NCBI RefSeq assembly: GCF_000003815.2
Contig: NC_049996.1
Span: 15,165,637 to 15,229,636 of the forward strand
From: Branchiostoma floridae
Taxonomy: Eukaryota; Chordata; Leptocardii; Amphioxiformes; Branchiostomatidae
DNA: 64,000 nt
Reading direction: 5' to 3'
In this document: piece after piece, positions 47,701-63,463 of the stretch
Position numbering within the stretch: the stretch's first letter is position 1
How the letters are laid out: each line of letters starts with the position of its first letter
The notes under the pieces: generated by a model
What the model saw: the letters and a program-made list of their open reading frames with translations, nothing else
Told to the model about the DNA's origin: nothing
Database searches by the model: none
Program-made: the position numbers and the translations under genes

Positions 47701-50700
47701 GTTGTTTTCGTGGCAAGTCCGTGAATAGTATAGAAGTAGAACACACACCGTTACCAGTAGACTAACCCCTTGTTGTAGTTCTCGCACTACTGCGTGGCCC
47801 AAGGGCTACAGAAACGGAGATGGGCACCGCCCTATACATCACATGATATGTGGGATGAACAGATGGTCAAAGAAGATAGGAGACGTTATACCGGGACAAG
47901 GTTTCTTGACACATCGCCTGGTCTCCTCCTTGTCGCCATGACAGTCCTTCCCGCCGTTAGTCGGTCCCACACATTCATGGGTCCGCCTCTCCACGCCTGC
48001 TCCACACGTTACTGAGCATGCGCCCCAGTCAGACCACGGGCCCCACACGCCATCCGCTGTAGAATAGACAGACGATGATTCGTACAAGAAGAGCAAATCT
48101 ACCTTATCTTTAAACAAATAGAATCGTATGGAATTGTGCTCATTTTTCACCTTTTTCACTTTTCAATTTTGTACAAGGCGTGGCCAGGGCCTGCTTAGGC
48201 CTACGTCACATTTCCAAACCGGTGCCCGGTCGGGCAGCTTTCGGGAACGAAAAGTATGATATAAAAGACACCAAACTACACAAGACAGAAAGAGAATAGT
48301 CGTAGGCATTATTTGTGTATAATCTTTACGTAAACATTTCTATTTTTCGTTTCCACAAACAGCCCGGCCGGGTCCCGGTACGGACATGTGGAGCATGGGA
48401 ACGTTGAAGCTATGAACCTACTAGGGCAGTCGTCGGCGTTGCAGGTTCGGGTTTCCTCGGAGTCCCCCTCGCACGCCGCACGCCGGCATTGTTTGTGTAT
48501 ATTTTTACGTATTTTTATTTTTCGTTTCCAGGGCCCCGGTTTGGAAATGTGACTGTAGCTATGAACCTACTGGGGCAGTCGTCGGCGTTGCAGGTTCGGG
48601 TCTCCTCGGAGCCCCCCTCGCACCCCGCCGCACCGTCCGCCCAGCCCTGGCACTTCCTGCTCCGCCGCTGCTGCCCCCCTCCGCATGACTTGGTACATCC
48701 GCCCCAGGTAGACCACTTCGACCACTGGAAGTCATCTGGTGAAAAGGTAAAGATAATGAATGAAGGGTAAAGATAATCATGAGCAGTCATCTAGCCTCTA
48801 CCAGGCTCCACAGGTCGCTGGGAAATAGTACAGCCGCCCCAGGGCGACCGCTTCGACCACTGGAAGTCATCTGGTATGAAAGGTAAAGATTGTCATATAT
48901 AAGCAGTCATCTAGCCTCTACCAGGCTCCACAGGGCGCTAGGAAATAGTACAGCCGATCCAGGACGACCGCTTAGACCACTGGAAGTCATGTGGTGTAAA
49001 AGTGAAAGATTATCATCGCAAACAGTCATCTAGTAATCTCCAAGCAGATCCTGCGGTAGCACAAGATAGCTAGTATCAAAAGCTGGCAGAGGAGTGAAGC
49101 CGGCTTAGGAGTGTGCTCGCTACCGCTACAAGGCAAATGGACACCTTTTGGCTGACTACACTCCTTGGCCAGTTTGGTACTATCTTATGCCATCGTAGGA
49201 TCTGCTTGGAGATGATCAACTAGCCTCTACCAGGCTCCACAGGTCGCTGGAAAATAGTACAGCCGCCCCAAGTAGACCACTTCGACCACTGGAAGTCATC
49301 AGGCATAAAAGGCGATAATCATCGCAAACAGTCATCTAGTAATCTCCAAGCAGATCCTTCGGTAGCATAAGATAGTATCAAAAGCTTTTACAAAATAAAA
49401 TCATCCATTCATTCAAAGCTAGCAACTAGCTTCCACCAGGCTCCACAGGTCGCTGGGAAATAGCAGAAATTGGTCGAATAGACTGATGGCACGCCAGAGG
49501 AGTTAGTTGGCCGAGGGATACCTCTAACAAACTCTACTCCTCGATGGAGCCTAGTAGAGGCTAGTACATGTAGCTGCCTGCAGTACGACAATGCGTCTTC
49601 GCTCCTACTGAGCTTGCACACTGGAACACCCGAACGCCTTTGGGTAAGTGTGCTGGGTTCTTTTACTGGTTTCTTTAACCTCTACGTCACACCGTGGGAC
49701 GGCCTGTGCTGTGGCTACCGGGCTATATTTGGACCAGGCCGGGGCCCGGACGTCTTAAAATCCCCGATTGGCACCCACGCAACTGTGACCAAAAACAAAA
49801 CACGGAGGCTGCCGGTTTTACGTCCCCAACTGAACAGACGAACAGCCCCTGGTTCTAATACACATTCATGACATTTGTAACACGTACTTTCCAAAATGGA
49901 CTATAAAACAATCATTCAAAAAGTGCATTCCAAAGGGTATAGACTGCAGTGACTAAATGTCAATGTGCAGTGTACACAGATACGTGTACGTACAACGTCG
50001 TGTGATCCACCTCTGACATTGGTCAAGTACATTTGTAATTGCATTGTTGATTGCCAGACATGTGCTCTACTGTCAAGAAATAAATCAGTAGGCTAGGAAC
50101 AATTGCTGATTTCCTATCTCTTTATAGCTTCCGTTACCATTTACTAGCATCTCACCCGGACATGGCTTCTCGTTGCAGGCCTGTGTCTCGTGGGTTCCGC
50201 CGTCGCAGCCCTTCCCGCCGTGTGCCGGGGCGGGGTCCGTACACTCCCGGGAGCGGGCCTGCTGTCCCCCGCCGCACGTCTCCGTGCACTCGCCCCACGC
50301 CGTCCACGGGCTCCAGTTCCCGTCAACTTTGTGAGAGAAAAAAATATTTTAAAAAAAGTGTCACTTTTTTCTCGTCCATTTTGTGTCATTGGCTGGTAGT
50401 ACATGTACAATGGTTTTAAAAGCTATGAAGCACGACTTAAAATTTTTGGCCCCGTCCATAATAAAAAAATTAAACGGTTCTATCCGTTTGGCCTCTGTGC
50501 ACTCGCCCCATGCCGTCCACGGGCTCCAGTTCCCGACAAATTTGTGTATGAAGAAAAAATGCGTCGCTTTTTTCTCGTTCATGTTGCGTTATTGGCTATG
50601 TATGTCAAGTGACAGTGTAAATACCAGCGAAATATCTGTTTGGACATAGAACGGCGTGTGTTGTGTATTTTCAGAAGGTTCTGTTTTTATATCTTCCCAT

Positions 50701-54780: not shown

Positions 54781-55199
54781 TAGGGGTGGGTATCGGCACA
54801 GCGTACCGGTACAAAACCGTTTTTTCTTATTGGACCGGTCCGGTCCAGAAAAACCGGACCTGAAAAATTAGGTGGACCGGATGTTGGACCGATAGGAAAA
54901 TTAACAGATTATTTTATCAGGCATTCACACGTTTTGGCGCTTGCAGGTGGAAGAAAATAACGAGAGTGAAGTAGAGTAGAGTTTATAGTAATTTCTACCA
55001 AGTATTACAGCCAATCGTACAGGTGCAGTTAGTGTTGTATGATTTTAAAATGCCAGTGTAAGTCTAATACTCCATCAAACAGATTTCTTTGTAGTGAATT
55101 TGACCATTGGTATGAGTCATACTTCATCAGGTCCAGGTCCGGACCTGATCCTTTGGACCTGAACTGGACCTGAATTTTCTGTACCGGTACCCAGCCCTA
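54781..55199. mobile_element. Family F MITE, second copy
   Basis: Left end TAGGGGTGGGTATCGGCACA, right end GTACCGGTACCCAGCCCTAA. Interior order is that of 19914-20324 reversed. Confidence 0.65.
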
Positions 55200-55204
55200 A
55201 TGTA

Positions 55205-56827: not shown

Positions 56828-56982
56828 CTACTTCACGGCTTCAAAGAAACCGCAGGCCTGCAGCTTGGCCTTGATCTTGGCCAGTTCCTCCTCAGAACGG
56901 CGCTGCATGGGGGGGCGGGGCGGCCCAAAGTCAATGCCGGACGTCATGGTCATGAGGTACTTGTTCAGTCCTATGTCCATCC
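56828..56982 (-). CDS. NPL: NPL last exon
   Basis: Fifty codons plus TAG. Begins in phase 1 so that the incoming base completes a glycine. Reads MDIGLNKYLMTMTSGIDFGP and ends KIKAKLQACGFFEAVK, the helical tail of the lyase. Acceptor CCCCAG. Confidence 0.9.
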
Positions 56983-59900
56983 CTGGGGTAAAGCATTGAA
57001 GAAAAAAACATAAACAACCACAACCATTGATTGAAGTTTTGTAGCCTCTACCAGGCACCCAGGTCGCTGGAAAAATAGTAGAAATTGGCCATTAGGTCAC
57101 AAACTGTTCTCCTCGGCCACCCAACTCCTCTGATGTGTTTTCTGTCTATTTGGCCAATTTCTACTATTTTTCCAGTGACCTGGGGAGCTTGGTAGAGGCT
57201 ATGATGCTTGGACTATACTATACAATTTCAACAGATTAACAGAAATTTTTAAGATTTACAAACATACTGTTCATTATTAATAATAGTGAACTTTTTAAAA
57301 ACTATCGTGATTAATTACTTCAATGGGTGCCATTGCCTTTAAATTTGATATGAAGAAATTTTTATCAACTCTCAACGATTTTCAACAATTTCATTTCTAA
57401 ATATGGTAATGTTAAAAGAAGTCAAAGTTACTCTAAAGTAAGATATCTAAAATTACAATTTTAGTGAAAATTGACTGTTCAAGCTGACAACATTAGCGAT
57501 CAAACAATAAAACCATCAACTCCCAAAGAATAAAATTGGAGCTTATAACAGAGATAAAGTAATCAAGTAAAAAAATCAAGTTTAGATGATAATTAGATGA
57601 AAAATAATCTAAAGAATTTGCAGATTAAAAAAAAACGTTTTCAAGAGTCATCCTTACTTGCTTATGTCAAATGAAGATCTTTACTATCTTGGAAATTACT
57701 TTTATTAATTTAGAAATTAACATTTGTAAAACTCTTACTTTTCATGTATTTCCATCTTTTAACCTCATTAAAAGACATTGATTTGAACGATATGTTGACA
57801 AATCTATTAAAGAATCCATTTTTGTAAATGAGTTTATATTTCCAGGATCTTACCAGGTCCATTTGTTAGCACCCTTGCACGTTTCAGGGCCTGAGACATG
57901 GACTGTCAATAATCCACAAACAACAGTCAGAAAATACCCTGTCTCCAGTTATCATTTCATACTTCATTTGTGAGTCATTGCTTTCATTGGCATGATTAGA
58001 GGAATAAAGAAAATGGACAGCTATTTCAGTCAGCTGGATAAAATATATACAGGTGTGACATGCCAGAATCTACCCATGGTAAGGTATATTCTGGCCAGAG
58101 GTGTATTTCAGCATGCTGCACCCATAGCTAAATTTGACTTGACCCAGTGAAAAGAATTGTGTTGTACCTTTAACTTCTTGGTTTCTTCGCTGTCGTTTAC
58201 ATACGGAAATGAGTATCTTCCAATTTAAGAGAACTGTCGAAAATACTTTTCTTTGTTGTTGGGCCCTTCTTGTTCTTTCTGAAATACGGACACCTTTGTG
58301 TAAGGACTGTAGGTCACTCAGAACCCCTACCAGAGCCCAGAATGATTCTAGACATTTCTACAAAGGCAAAGCCTGGTTTTCTTTCATTGTGTCCACTGTT
58401 TGTGCAAAATGACAAAGAACAATGTCCTTGCCCCCCTCCCCCTGTAGTGCATGTAGTATGCAAACTGTTCCTTACCAGGTCCATGGTCACAAAGGATTTT
58501 CAAGAACAGTTGGGAGAGTAGCTGTTTGACAAGAGAACACATCAAACATCAGAACCTTGGTCAAATCTTTCATCAAACATTAACAAAATATAATTGTGTG
58601 TTAGTTCAAATTTGCTTATTCAGCTTTGATTTGGCGTAGAATCTAATGATAATTCGCATTTGGAGCTTGCTGAGCATTGTGGTGATGCGCACACATAGGT
58701 GGTTCCCTGTGGAACTGATCTGATTTGAAATCCTGATAAAATGCATTTCTGGCAGCTGAGGTTGTGATCAAGTTGGTTCCAATTTGCAGTGCGGCAGCAA
58801 ATAGACCTTTATGAACAGGTGTTTTGCGCAGGCTTAAAAAAGGCAAGCGGAAAATGTAGTTTTTATTGACCAATCCTGGTAAAACCCTTTTGTCAAAAAG
58901 TACATTTTTGTATCAAAAACTAGACCAGTCTTTTGACTTTGTGGGAAAGTGTATTGTTCTGAAGTTATTGTTAGAAATACTGTTTTTTTGTTCATTGTCT
59001 GTATCACTGTAGAATACTACAGAAACCATGATTCTCTGTATCATGTTTGTATCTCTCTGCTAATGGATGAAATAAAGCCTCTAATTTAGTCTAATGCCTC
59101 TGTCCAACTTGTCCATCTGTCATGTCTATCATTGTCGTGAACGAGGTAAAAGTTACTGAGAAAAAAGGTGAAATTATGTTAATAGAAATAGGAAGTCTTT
59201 GGTGATTATATAGGTATCAAAGGCTATTTATAGCTGACATAGGATCATTTAGTGACTGTTTAGGGCTAACAAAAGAACCTTTAAAACTTTTGGTTTTGAA
59301 AACTGTATAATGGAGTCAGGTTTACACATTTGTATAATGTAAAAAAGCTAAGAGAAGGTACTGATTTCCAGGTGAAGATGGGAGACTTTAAAATGAGACT
59401 TTTAAGCAGATACGTTGTATACTGTACCTCAATATAATGGTACTAGGGAAAAAAAGTAGAAATGGTCATTTGACTTCTGCATTACTAAAATGACTTGGAG
59501 CTGTAACAATTTTGGCACTAGCAAGAAAACATCTACAATCCAGAGCTCTTGCATCCCCTTGCACATCCTTGTGCACATATATGTTCCATGATATCCACTC
59601 ACCATGATTACTAAGTATCCTTAGGAAATGTTGAGACATATGCTGCAGAAAAGCAAGGGCAGAAATCACACAGAAATCAGCTGAAATCAGTAAGAAGCTG
59701 GAGGTTGAAAAATATGCCGCTCGCCATATTCAGCAAGAACAACATAGATCTATCATTTGCAGTTGTCAGGCCTAGGGAAAAATGTGTTTCCTGTTTCCCG
59801 AACTACCCCAGAAAAAACTGCCGACCCTAGACGTTTTTGGGTGGGCACTGCTGGGCAGTGGAGTCACATAGCTTCCAGGTAGAATTTTTATTCAACCTGT

Positions 59901-62900
59901 TTCCTATTCAAGTAAAAAGAAAATAGTACTGGTTTTCTTATCTAAAGAAGGTTAAATGTATTCACAGATTTGTAACCATTATGCACAAAATTCAAGTTTG
60001 AATTGAAAATATAAGTGTTATCATGCATTTCAGTTTTCCTTTGTTAAACTGTATTGTATCACTAGAGTCTTGGCCAAAGTATAAAAAAATAGAATAAGAT
60101 AGATAAAAAGGATAATTCCTACCTACAGACCCTAATTTTTCAAGACTGAAACAGGAAACACAACTGTTACATTTTTTCCCTAGGCCTTAAACATATGATA
60201 CCAGAAGGATAAGAGCAGAAATCACACTGAAATCAGATGCAAACATCAACTTGGTAGAAGCTAAAACACAGCAGTTGTAGAAGTCAGCATCTGAAGTCAC
60301 ACTAAAATCATGAGCTGAAATCAAAAAGATCAGTTAGAAGTAGAAATCAGTTGACCATAACGTAAAAACTGAAATTAAAGAGAAGTAACTGTTACTGTTC
60401 TTTAACAACAGTCAAAGAGAGAGTAAATGGGAAAATTAATCCATATATCTTTGAGGGTCCCACGCTTTTTAAACGATAATCAGATGTCTCAAACATACAT
60501 TTAGTATTTTAAATCTCTACAACTGGATAAAATTCTGAGATTTGCTTCTGGAAGTTTCTAGTGAACTCACTCAAATTAATATTGTCGAAATGTCCGGACG
60601 TAAAACTCAGACTCAAACAGAGATTGAAGACTGTTAACTTGGCTTTCTAACTTTTATAAAGATACATGTACATTAAAAAAAAATTGGGACCAGCCAATTG
60701 CAAAAGCGGTTGTTATAGGCCAATGGTCGTTTTAAGGATGTGGTTGCTTATACAAGTTTCACTGTACATAATTCAGAGGCTGGTCCAATTTGAATGGCAA
60801 TCAAGCATAATATGGACAGTTGCTCTGGAATAAAACTTTGGTACCCCATGCAGACCCTCATGAAATTCAAGGATATTCAGTGATTTCAGTAGATGGTATT
60901 GCCTTCCACAAATGTCTATAAAACTCATTGTCAGTGTCTGTCTGTCAAACTGTCAATTGTACAGGCTCACAAAAAAACTCTGGGTAAAACATGTTGTCAC
61001 ATATTTTGTTGCGAAAAGATTTTCTCTGTGAAATTGTCATGCAATACACTTTTTTTTTTCAAAATAAGATAATAGAGATAACAAACAAACAAAGTTTTTC
61101 AAGTTTAAGTCTTCAAAAGTTACACCATAGAAGAAAGTATTTTCATAGATAGGAATTTATGTTCAAATTATGTTCGAAAAATCACTTGAATCGTGAAATA
61201 AGCTAAAGAGAAATTATTATTGATAAGCATAATAATGAAAAGCTAAAATCTGATGTACCTGTATTATGAACAGGAAATACAATCAAACAACAATATCACA
61301 GAATAAAACCAATCATTGAATCAATCAATTTAATCAAGTTAAACACACACTTCAAACAAATGTAGTATTTGAACATGATGTAGTCAATGCTTTCCTTTTT
61401 GCAGAGGTCGCTATTGTATGTTTTCTGTTTGCTTTCATCTAGGACCTAAATACCCATTAAAGAATGGTTGATTTTTCTTTAAATAACTGCAAACATCTGA
61501 TGAACTTGAACAGCAGAAGTTTTTACTATGATTTCCAAGCAGAGTGGTAACTACATGTAACATCTGAACAACAAACATCCTGAGTTACACTGCAAACAAT
61601 ATTAAAAGCACAATTTACAAAATGGCAATGCGCACAGCTTTAAGTTAATTCTGATTTCACATGTATGCAGAATCTACTATGGAAAACAACATTGTCAACA
61701 TCTAACTGTATGGAAAATTCTACATTACCTGTTCTTTACGTGCTGCTTCAAGGTCCCCATTATCATACGCTGTCCGCATACGGTTATAAATTTTACCTAA
61801 AAAAGAAGAATACATTTTACCTACAAAAAAAGAATGCAAACAACAACGTTTCACATTAATTTTGCAAAACCAGTGACAGCAAGTATAATGCTTGTTCACC
61901 TTTATCTGAGGGGTAACCTAAATTCGTTGGTTTAGAAAACTGTGTCATGACCTAGGGATTTCAGGTCAACGGACATTTGTTTCGAATTGAAATATCTTCA
62001 AGATATTGCAGTGTGAAACTACCGTCTTTCTTGATGATCCAAAAATACCCTATTTTCAAATACAATGGAAATAGGTTACCCCACGGACAAAGGTGACCTA
62101 ACGTTACCTGTTGATGTACATGTATGGGATATTTCCACTCACTTTCTATTTCCAATTTACATCTACTTTTCAGTACAGTAACTATTTAGAGTCATGTTAG
62201 AAAGTTTACCAGCATAGTTGAAGGTACTCCCCACGAATGACGTAGCTCCCATCACCAAAGCACACAGACCTTGCTGCAGAGTGGACCAAATACAACAATA
62301 TTAGGGCTGCATATATAATGTTATATAGTATATATACATAAATGTAACATCACGTACAGGTGCAGGCAGTAATTGTTTTTAAGGTACAGTCAAACCTGTA
62401 TTAGGGGCCACCTCTACAGAGGGGCCACCTGTCCAAAGTGGCCACTTTTTGTCGGTCCCTTGGGTATTTTAACTACAAGTTGCCACTTCTATACAGAGGC
62501 CACCTGTCTATAGTGGCCAAATTTGTCCGGTCCCTTGAGTGGGCGCTATAGACAGGTTTGACTGTACAGGCAAATGACCAATTTGATCAGAGTTTTTCTA
62601 TTTGCCTTTCAGCCCCACAGACTTGTCGGAGACTTGCCTGAAATTGGCGGTGCATATTTTAAGTGATAAGACTTTGATCAAGAAAGAAAGGTAAATATTT
62701 TTGCAAAAAGGCAGAATGTTTTTCTTATAGCCTTTTGTCAAGCTACCCGCACACTATAGTATACCTGTAGCATTGTGTGCGAGTAAAAAAAAGTACATCT
62801 ACTTGGTTTTTGGACCAGGGCATTAACATAGTACTGTAACAGTTATATTATACCATTAGACTCACCCTATAGTATTGTGTGCGAGTCAAGAAAAACTGTT

Positions 62901-63463
62901 AATATTTTACAATACTGTATACAGCTAACAAGCTAACGCAGCTCTAAACTTTCATTGGATCCTGACACAAGGAATAAAAAAAAAACAGCAAAAAAATGTT
63001 TTTTCATAATATCAGCAAAAAAAAAGATAGTTCAGCTAGATCTTGTTGTGCTTCTCAGCTCTTTAGATGGATCAAATCATAGACACTCAGCTGTTGCTAT
63101 AACGTCTATTCTGGTGTAGTGTTAGTAAGGTACAGAGAGTCGGCGGTGGCACGTAGGCTCAGTGCTCGGGTCGTGGTGCAAAGAGGAAGTCAAAGTTCGG
63201 TGCCTCTTACTTGAGGTCTGGAGCTACTTAATATTTAGATGTTGGGCTGTGTACATTGGAGTAGAGGGGTGTTTTTCTATACTATTTTTATACTGATATC
63301 ACAACAGATCTCACCTCATCCCTGCCGTACATCATGATATACTTCCCGTTGCTGTGCACCAGGCACCGCCCGTAGTCCAGCATGTTGTAGTCTGTGTACT
63401 TGCAGCCTCGGAACGTCGGAACTTTCACCGTCTCTAGGGCATCTAGGAGGTCCTCTACCATGA
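56828..63463 (-). CDS. NPL: N-acetylneuraminate lyase, C-terminal half
   Basis: Exons: 63315-63463, 62210-62273, 61729-61796, then either 58476-58521 or 57854-57902, then 56828-56982. The family cleaves N-acetylneuraminate to N-acetylmannosamine and pyruvate through a Schiff base in the cytosol. The reading VPTFRGCKYTDYNMLDYGRC has the Schiff-base lysine (K of GCKYTD), YGRDE matches the conserved YxxDE, GATSFVGSTFN matches the E. coli GADGGIGSTYN loop, and TSGIDFGPPRPPMQ matches the vertebrate VSGIPMGPPRLPLQ. The N-terminal part, with the GxxGE motif, must lie to the right of the window. Intron phases agree at each junction. Confidence 0.92.
57042..57201. mobile_element. Family D element, clean palindrome
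   Basis: Left arm TAGCCTCTACCAGGCACCCA, right arm reading back TAGCCTCTACCAAGCTCCCC; about 48 bp of arm extend to GAAATTGGCC. In the last intron of NPL, 60 bp from the last exon. Confidence 0.75.
57205..57850. other. NPL intron, AT-rich, nothing recognised
   Basis: Very AT-rich intron sequence. No exon or repeat supported. Confidence 0.5.
57854..57902 (-). CDS. NPL: NPL alternative exon, downstream version
   Basis: Sixteen codons plus one base between a TTGACAG acceptor and the donor CTG|GTAAGA. Encodes SMSQALKRARVLTNGPG, ending with the glycine shared with the last exon. Phase 0 in, phase 1 out, the same as the version at 58476-58521. It shares 13 identical bases at the donor (TGGACCTG|GTAAG) with that version. 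It is more basic and less hydrophobic than expected for this helix. Confidence 0.6.
58476..58521 (-). CDS. NPL: NPL alternative exon, upstream version
   Basis: Fifteen codons plus one base between a TCAAACAG acceptor and the donor CTG|GTAAGG. Encodes LLSQLFLKILCDHGPG. Its hydrophobic helix resembles the human RFINFVVKLGFG stretch better than the other version does. Same phases as 57854-57902, so splicing both together would shift the frame: only one can be used per transcript. Confidence 0.6.
58525..61725. other. NPL intron, repeat remnants only
   Basis: Contains remnants of the element with AAAATGTGTTTCCTGTTTC (59775-60190) also seen at 40330-40570, and a family E-like piece at 60680-60770 (GGTTGTTATAGGCC, TTTCACTGTACA). 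No further exon found in the 3.2 kb. Confidence 0.45.
61729..61796 (-). CDS. NPL: NPL exon
   Basis: Begins phase 1, ends phase 0. Encodes KIYNRMRTAYDNGDLEAARK then EQ. Donor CAG|GTAATG. The GDLEAARKEQ stretch matches the helix before the alternative exons in the family. Confidence 0.85.
61889..62105. repeat. Palindromic MITE, family A, in NPL intron
   Basis: Left end TTGTTCACCTTTATCTG (diverged), right end GGACAAAGGTGACCTAACGTT. The only family A copy inside a recognised gene. Confidence 0.7.
62210..62273 (-). CDS. NPL: NPL exon
   Basis: Phase 0 in, phase 1 out. Encodes QGLCALVMGATSFVGSTFNY then A. GxTSFVGSTFN aligns with the conserved loop that binds the substrate's carboxylate in this family. 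Acceptor TCTGCAG. Confidence 0.9.
62397..62564. mobile_element. Short pogo-like element, family E, in NPL intron
   Basis: Ends CAGTCAAACCTGTATTAGGG and TAGACAGGTTTGACTG, flanked by TA. Half the length of the copy at 56424-56747. Confidence 0.7.
62570..63312. other. NPL intron with a small repeat
   Basis: Two copies of TATAGTATNNNNTGTNGCNTTGTGTGCGAGT-like wording at 62755-62785 and 62868-62890 suggest a duplication. No exon supported. Confidence 0.4.
63315..63463 (-). CDS. NPL: NPL exon with the catalytic lysine
   Basis: Begins phase 1 after TCTCCCAG, ends phase 0 at GAG|GTGAGA. Reads MVEDLLDALETVKVPTFRGC then KYTDYNMLDYGRC and YIMMYGRDE. The lysine of GCKYTD aligns with the Schiff-base lysine (E. 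coli LKQTSGD, human LKFSDTD). Confidence 0.92.

Follow-up and report, generated by a model that had tools for sequence, protein, structure and literature searches.

Homologous mutually exclusive exons, as in Dscam, muscle myosin heavy chain and dynein, lie adjacent to each other, are similar in length, share their phases and encode the same place in the protein. A device that enforces the choice, such as docking/selector pairing or a too-short intron, is not required of every mutually exclusive array. The criteria used for predicting such exons are neighbouring position, similar length, same phases and homologous peptides, with a length difference of up to 20 residues tolerated and a default minimum of 15 residues (PMC3228551). 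Given that 90 of 16,180 exons not spliced mutually exclusively had the same features, as counted in that account (PMC3228551), the criteria are informative but not proof. In human, tandem-duplicated exon substitutions have been described as a class (PMC9741552). The N-acetylneuraminate lyase (NPL) gene of the lancelet Branchiostoma floridae carries three short exons, C, B and A in transcript order, that stand in tandem, agree in phase, are similar in length, possess splice sites and, in the case of B and C, encode homologous peptides. Unlike the described systems, they belong to a cytosolic catabolic enzyme, fall at its substrate pocket, consist of 13 (C), 15 (B) and 16 (A) codons and are predicted from sequence; exon C is under the predictor's default minimum of 15 residues. 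We regard the array as a candidate case within the known class, in which use of the exons would be exclusive.

Among lyases, the closest described systems are NPL/NanA within the DHDPS superfamily, to which the lancelet gene is linked by the PF00701 family, by human NPL (6arh) as best PDB match and by conserved catalytic residues. However, each of 83 aligned relatives has one version of the segment in question, whereas the lancelet gene offers three. Literature searches, with subscription journals outside their scope, found nothing on N-acetylneuraminate lyase together with amphioxus and, within titles and abstract openings, no exon choice at this place for lyase with splicing or exons and nothing on NPL for lancelets with exclusive or duplicated exons.

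The genome searched comprises 513,431,437 bases in 431 contigs, and the window, meaning the whole 64-kb stretch of DNA that was analysed, corresponds to C18:15165637-15229636. NPL is encoded on the minus strand, and the gene extends beyond the window edge; the model was built from the first Met with the upstream part outside the window added, and consists of nine constant exons, the array and the last exon. Constant exon 7 (63315-63463, 149 nt) carries the Schiff-base lysine in GCKYTD, aligned to E. coli Lys165, and is followed by exon 8 (62210-62273, 64 nt) and exon 9 (61729-61796, 68 nt), which ends in phase 0 directly before the array. The coding part of the last exon with its stop (56828-56982, 155 nt) takes one base from an array exon, and the array-bearing intron is 4,746 nt in length. 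Equivalents of E. coli Lys165, Asp191, Glu192, Ser208 and Thr209 are kept in the alignment, and the gene has the family profile together with the catalytic and pocket residues of an N-acetylneuraminate lyase. Its predicted role, by family membership, would be the cleavage of sialic acid to ManNAc and pyruvate. Two neighbouring stretches were noted on the same strand: several open frames at about 47839-50588 contain WSxWxxWGxCxxxCGGG and CNxxxCP words, which we take to resemble thrombospondin type 1 repeats, and a gene resembling a rhodopsin-type GPCR by eye is found upstream of NPL, at about 9400-7430 of the upstream sequence. Downstream of NPL, about 54787-55200 appears by eye to be rich in CCGGTCCGGTCC / GGACCTGAA words and is perhaps a dispersed repeat.

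General family models scored the lyase similarly with exon A or B. For the isoform with exon B the match to human NPL 6arh had E 9.9e-80 (chain score 271.3), and for the one with exon A it had E 1.5e-77 (264.1); PF00701 scored 131.5 bits with B and 133.8 bits with A, and the bacterial NCBIfam nanA model scored 89.7 with B and 90.4 with A, under its cut-off of 382. Because none of these scores separated the two isoforms, they were rejected as a discriminator and a dedicated relatives' profile was built from the best 80 of at least 533 bacterial relatives and three PDB chains (83 sequences). Viral contigs searched for NPL relatives gave 18 pattern matches with no relative among them.

The first-pass annotation of this DNA had proposed exons A and B as a mutually exclusive pair, and both exist, on the minus strand. 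Exon A (57854-57902, 49 nt, SMSQALKRARVLTNGP/G) has the borders gacag/TCC and CTG/gtaaga, and exon B (58476-58521, 46 nt, LLSQLFLKILCDHGP/G) has the borders aaacag/CTA and CTG/gtaagg. As had been claimed, both enter in phase 0 and leave in phase 1, exon 9 ending in phase 0 (61729) and the last exon, from 56982, lacking one base, and both share a GPG ending. The common donor stretch is also present, its length being 14 identical bases rather than 13 (ATGGACCTG/gtaag, 9 in the exon and 5 in the intron). The either/or logic of the proposal agrees with the frame, but the cluster has three members, and the one that had been missed, exon C (59603-59642 on the minus strand, 40 nt, 13 codons plus one base, phase 0 to 1, HMSQHFLRILSNH/G), was recovered in a splice and frame scan. 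On the weight tables used, the splice scores are 12.5 (acceptor) and 10.2 (donor) for C, the best of the three copies, 6.0 and 10.0 for B, and 1.1 and 8.8 for A, whose poor acceptor is the lowest among the internal exons. GT and AG are present on all three.

All three exons sit between the same two constant exons and have a length of 3n+1 nucleotides, and the frame is kept solely with exactly one of them, giving proteins of 309 (C), 311 (B) or 312 (A) residues. The claim that A or B alone keeps the frame and that the two together break it is thus correct, and skipping both likewise leads to an early stop. Stops follow after 269 residues with C and B joined, 291 with C and A, 293 with B and A, 269 with all three and 248 with none. 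In the mechanism that we propose, inclusion of exactly one array exon would yield a full-length lyase, with two, three or none resulting in frameshift and truncation. Size does not enforce exclusivity, the array introns being 1081 and 573 nt in length with ordinary GT/AG splice sites. Docking/selector RNA pairing was not found beyond shuffles, with energies of −20.2 and −22.3 kcal/mol compared with −18.3 to −22.1 and −18.8 to −24.3 kcal/mol for 8 shuffles each.

The three exons were then compared as peptides. The B–C alignment score was attained by 0 of 5000 shuffles, and C and B (LLSQLFLKILCDH) have S, Q, F, L, I, L and H in common in register. For A–C the count was likewise 0 of 5000, and holding the GPG of A fixed raised it to 2 of 5000; for A–B it was 1 of 5000, rising to 266 of 5000 with GPG held fixed. 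In tblastn, B recovered C (E 0.004) and C recovered B (E 0.003), and exon A recovered neither. An ungapped comparison gave B–C a BLOSUM score of 33 over 13 residues, the control maximum in 115,636 windows being 29 over 14 residues. In this ungapped scan for further array members C and B alone exceeded the control maximum, the next best score being 20. Similarity is thin at the DNA level: blastn of the intron against itself returned seven pairs with E values up to 5, the 14-mer at the A/B donors having E 0.23 and no B–C or A–C exon pair being among them. Local DNA alignment scores were 34 (C–B), 30 (C–A) and 28 (B–A), compared with maxima of 33 (B), 31 (A) and 61 (C) from 300 random intron pieces each, where the value of 61 is the score of a flank copy of C that lies inside the random pool itself. 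The peptide comparisons therefore identify B and C as clear protein homologues, and exon A is probably a homologue of both that has strongly diverged.

With the splice scores of exon A itself as thresholds, a search of the 4,746-nt intron for exons that are open, run from phase 0 to phase 1 and measure 31-79 nt gave four candidates: the three array exons and, nested within A, a shorter start. When both strands of the window were scanned as a control with A-like or better splice scores, 14 candidates emerged; this intron strand holds the same 4, and the remaining 10 predict by arithmetic about 0.4 per such intron strand. When all 14 were spliced into NPL and scored with the 83-relative profile, C (358.9), B (353.6) and A (348.2) ranked 1, 2 and 3, A standing 0.1 bit above the best decoy (348.1). 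Among narrower decoys (14 of 43-52 nt, 12 without A and B) none reached A, the maximum being 347.8. Shuffles attained the exon's own profile score in 1 of 2000 cases for C, 5 of 2000 for B and 372 of 2000 for A. By splice, profile and alignment scores, it is C and B that form the convincing pair, and A, one half of the pair first proposed, is the weakest member. No duplicates of other NPL exons were found at E 1 with tblastn-fast; a more sensitive search with exon 8 returned matches at chance level (best E 0.035).

On balance we favour the explanation that lancelet NPL contains three homologous alternative exons arrayed in tandem, of which one would enter each full-length lyase and reshape its substrate pocket, with C as the default, B maintained and A possibly decaying. 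In this explanation C and B would both be used, their use would be exclusive and the pocket would be affected, and the use of exon A at all is its least certain element.

The strongest alternative, possible though unlikely in our estimation, is that only C works, B and A being remnants of tandem duplication that are unspliced or spliced at noise level and decaying. It is in line with the leading position of C in both splice scores and profile fit, with a profile score of A near the decoy level, and with the flank copy that has lost its acceptor, which indicates that decay of copies does occur in this region. By contrast, B retains its frame, both splice sites, a strong donor and the residues of the family, and its pN against C is low beside a saturated pS. 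Fifteen of 39 sites differ between B and C, 7.5 of 8.0 synonymous and 7.5 of 31.0 nonsynonymous (pS 0.94, pN 0.24; Fisher p 0.003 or 0.0001 depending on rounding). The corresponding comparison of A with C, over 11 chosen codons with gapped codons dropped, gave 6.0 of 7.2 synonymous and 8.0 of 25.8 nonsynonymous (p 0.026).

Neutral drift starting from C was simulated in 6000 runs each at 0.3, 0.5, 0.75 and 1.0 changes per site. The frame stayed open, with AG/GT intact and a likeness to C at the level of B, in 855, 94, 5 and 0 runs, respectively; with the profile score of B as yardstick the counts were 851, 203, 36 and 8, and with that of A 1530, 567, 232 and 75. With the number of changes fixed at the observed 15, frame, sites and the score of B survived in 45 of 4000 runs if all changes were placed on B and in 777 of 4000 if half were, indicating that neutral decay is possible at the observed distance and that the evidence against it there is not strong. 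Because the silent sites are saturated, we give more weight to the longer drift distances, and at 0.75 changes per site the 5 runs with B-level similarity and the 36 runs with its profile score argue against a decaying B. Exon B is thus probably maintained, and exon A, which is indistinguishable from a fading remnant in these comparisons, is possibly decaying.

A three-way switch, in which up to three sialic acid lyases would differ only in the segment facing the sugar tail, goes further than the array explanation and appears doubtful to us. Less probable still is an off-switch, in which joined or skipped array exons would truncate the lyase and reduce its amount with no alternative enzyme intended. 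Every combination of two, three or no array exons does run into one of the stops listed above, but these stops fall within the array exons or the last exon, and junction-dependent decay is not expected for stops in such late positions; in addition, the amino acids of B look conserved, which an off-switch would not need. That A and B alone form the pair is hardly credible: they do share phase, GPG ending and 14 donor bases, but their intron also holds exon C, which surpasses them in splice sites and family fit.

Returning to the array of three alternative exons, each would supply one and the same helix together with the beginning of the loop after it. The segment had earlier been suggested to form the helix just ahead of the final part of the lyase, which agrees with the alignment. 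There it also spans substrate-pocket residues: it aligns with E. coli lyase residues 237-250, including the pocket residues Ile243, Leu246 and Ile247, and abuts Val251 and Phe252. In the E. coli E192N enzyme with pyruvate and a substrate analogue, as described in PMC3014015, Ile243, Leu246, Val251 and Thr209 make up a deep pocket, Ile247 belongs to a neighbouring surface and Val251 with Phe252 to a further one; in the wild-type enzyme, Glu192 is positioned such that it can hold the tail of the sugar at O8 and O9 (PMC3014015). At the position of Ile247 the lancelet exons encode Ser (C), Cys (B) and Thr (A), and at that of Ile243 they encode Leu (C), Leu (B) and Ala (A). The loop after the helix is longer in B and A than in C in the alignment, exon A has a 2-residue insertion within the helix, and the equivalents of Val251 and Phe252 are ambiguous by gap placement in the lancelet isoforms. 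Since the segment covers pocket residues, the choice of exon should alter the pocket, and so substrate preference or activity; substrate tuning would be its likeliest effect.

The history of the array can be approached from a second, intronless NPL copy at C4:20673247-20674164 on the minus strand, which has an open frame of 305 residues from the first Met. It shares 54.4% identity with the C isoform, 38.4% with human NPL and no more than 38.2% with the bacterial set, and it keeps the equivalents of the catalytic Lys, Asp, Glu, Ser and Thr. This copy is probably an old retrocopy, perhaps one that still functions as an enzyme. Counted from the Gln that precedes the array to the conserved Lys that follows it, the C isoform, human NPL and the intronless copy are equal in length, and therefore the form of C is probably ancestral. 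The donor follows CATG in C and lies 6 nt further downstream in B (CATGGACCTG/gtaag), by which we infer that the Gly-Pro common to B and A probably arose by a downstream donor shift. Aligning exon A requires a 6-nt gain and a 3-nt loss, each a multiple of three, which hints that A was formerly translated.

The best pair in the blastn comparison of the intron with itself (78% identity over 55 nt, E 3e-6) matches 59636-59689 to flank copy D (60191-60245, minus strand), which copies the upstream flank of C, its acceptor region and the first 7 exon bases, with the AG lost. Flank copy D is possibly a dead fourth exon copy; an extension of it into the exon beyond an intervening repeat was not significant, 103 of 1000 random segments scoring equally. 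That repeat, at 59768-60187 between flank copy D and exon C, is a MITE-like element of about 420 bp with inverted ends and is outside the exon switch; it has at least 41 matches genome-wide, itself included (40 of 1357 first-look candidates scored). Within 60191-60346, a repeated TGATTTCAG/TGTGATTTC motif resembles the tract just upstream of exon C, and 60293-60346 against 59662-59710 is the second-best pair of the intron with itself (E 0.019). These repeats may be old copies of the exon flank or a local minisatellite. Within the intron that separates A from the last exon, 57058-57184 contains a 34-nt inverted repeat, 97% complementary with 59 nt between its arms, that could fold the pre-mRNA into a hairpin.

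Human NPL and bacterial NanA handle KDN and KDO differently, as described in PMC13220900, and if the isoforms are made, the lancelet forms could show which pocket residues count for this handling. One gene would then provide natural lyase variants at the substrate pocket, and hence a direct test of splicing-tuned specificity in a metabolic enzyme. Such isoforms would also mean that predictors with a length limit, such as the one with a 15-residue default minimum (PMC3228551), miss very short exon copies. Were the three-way switch true, tissues or stages could select which sialic acids or related sugars get destroyed.
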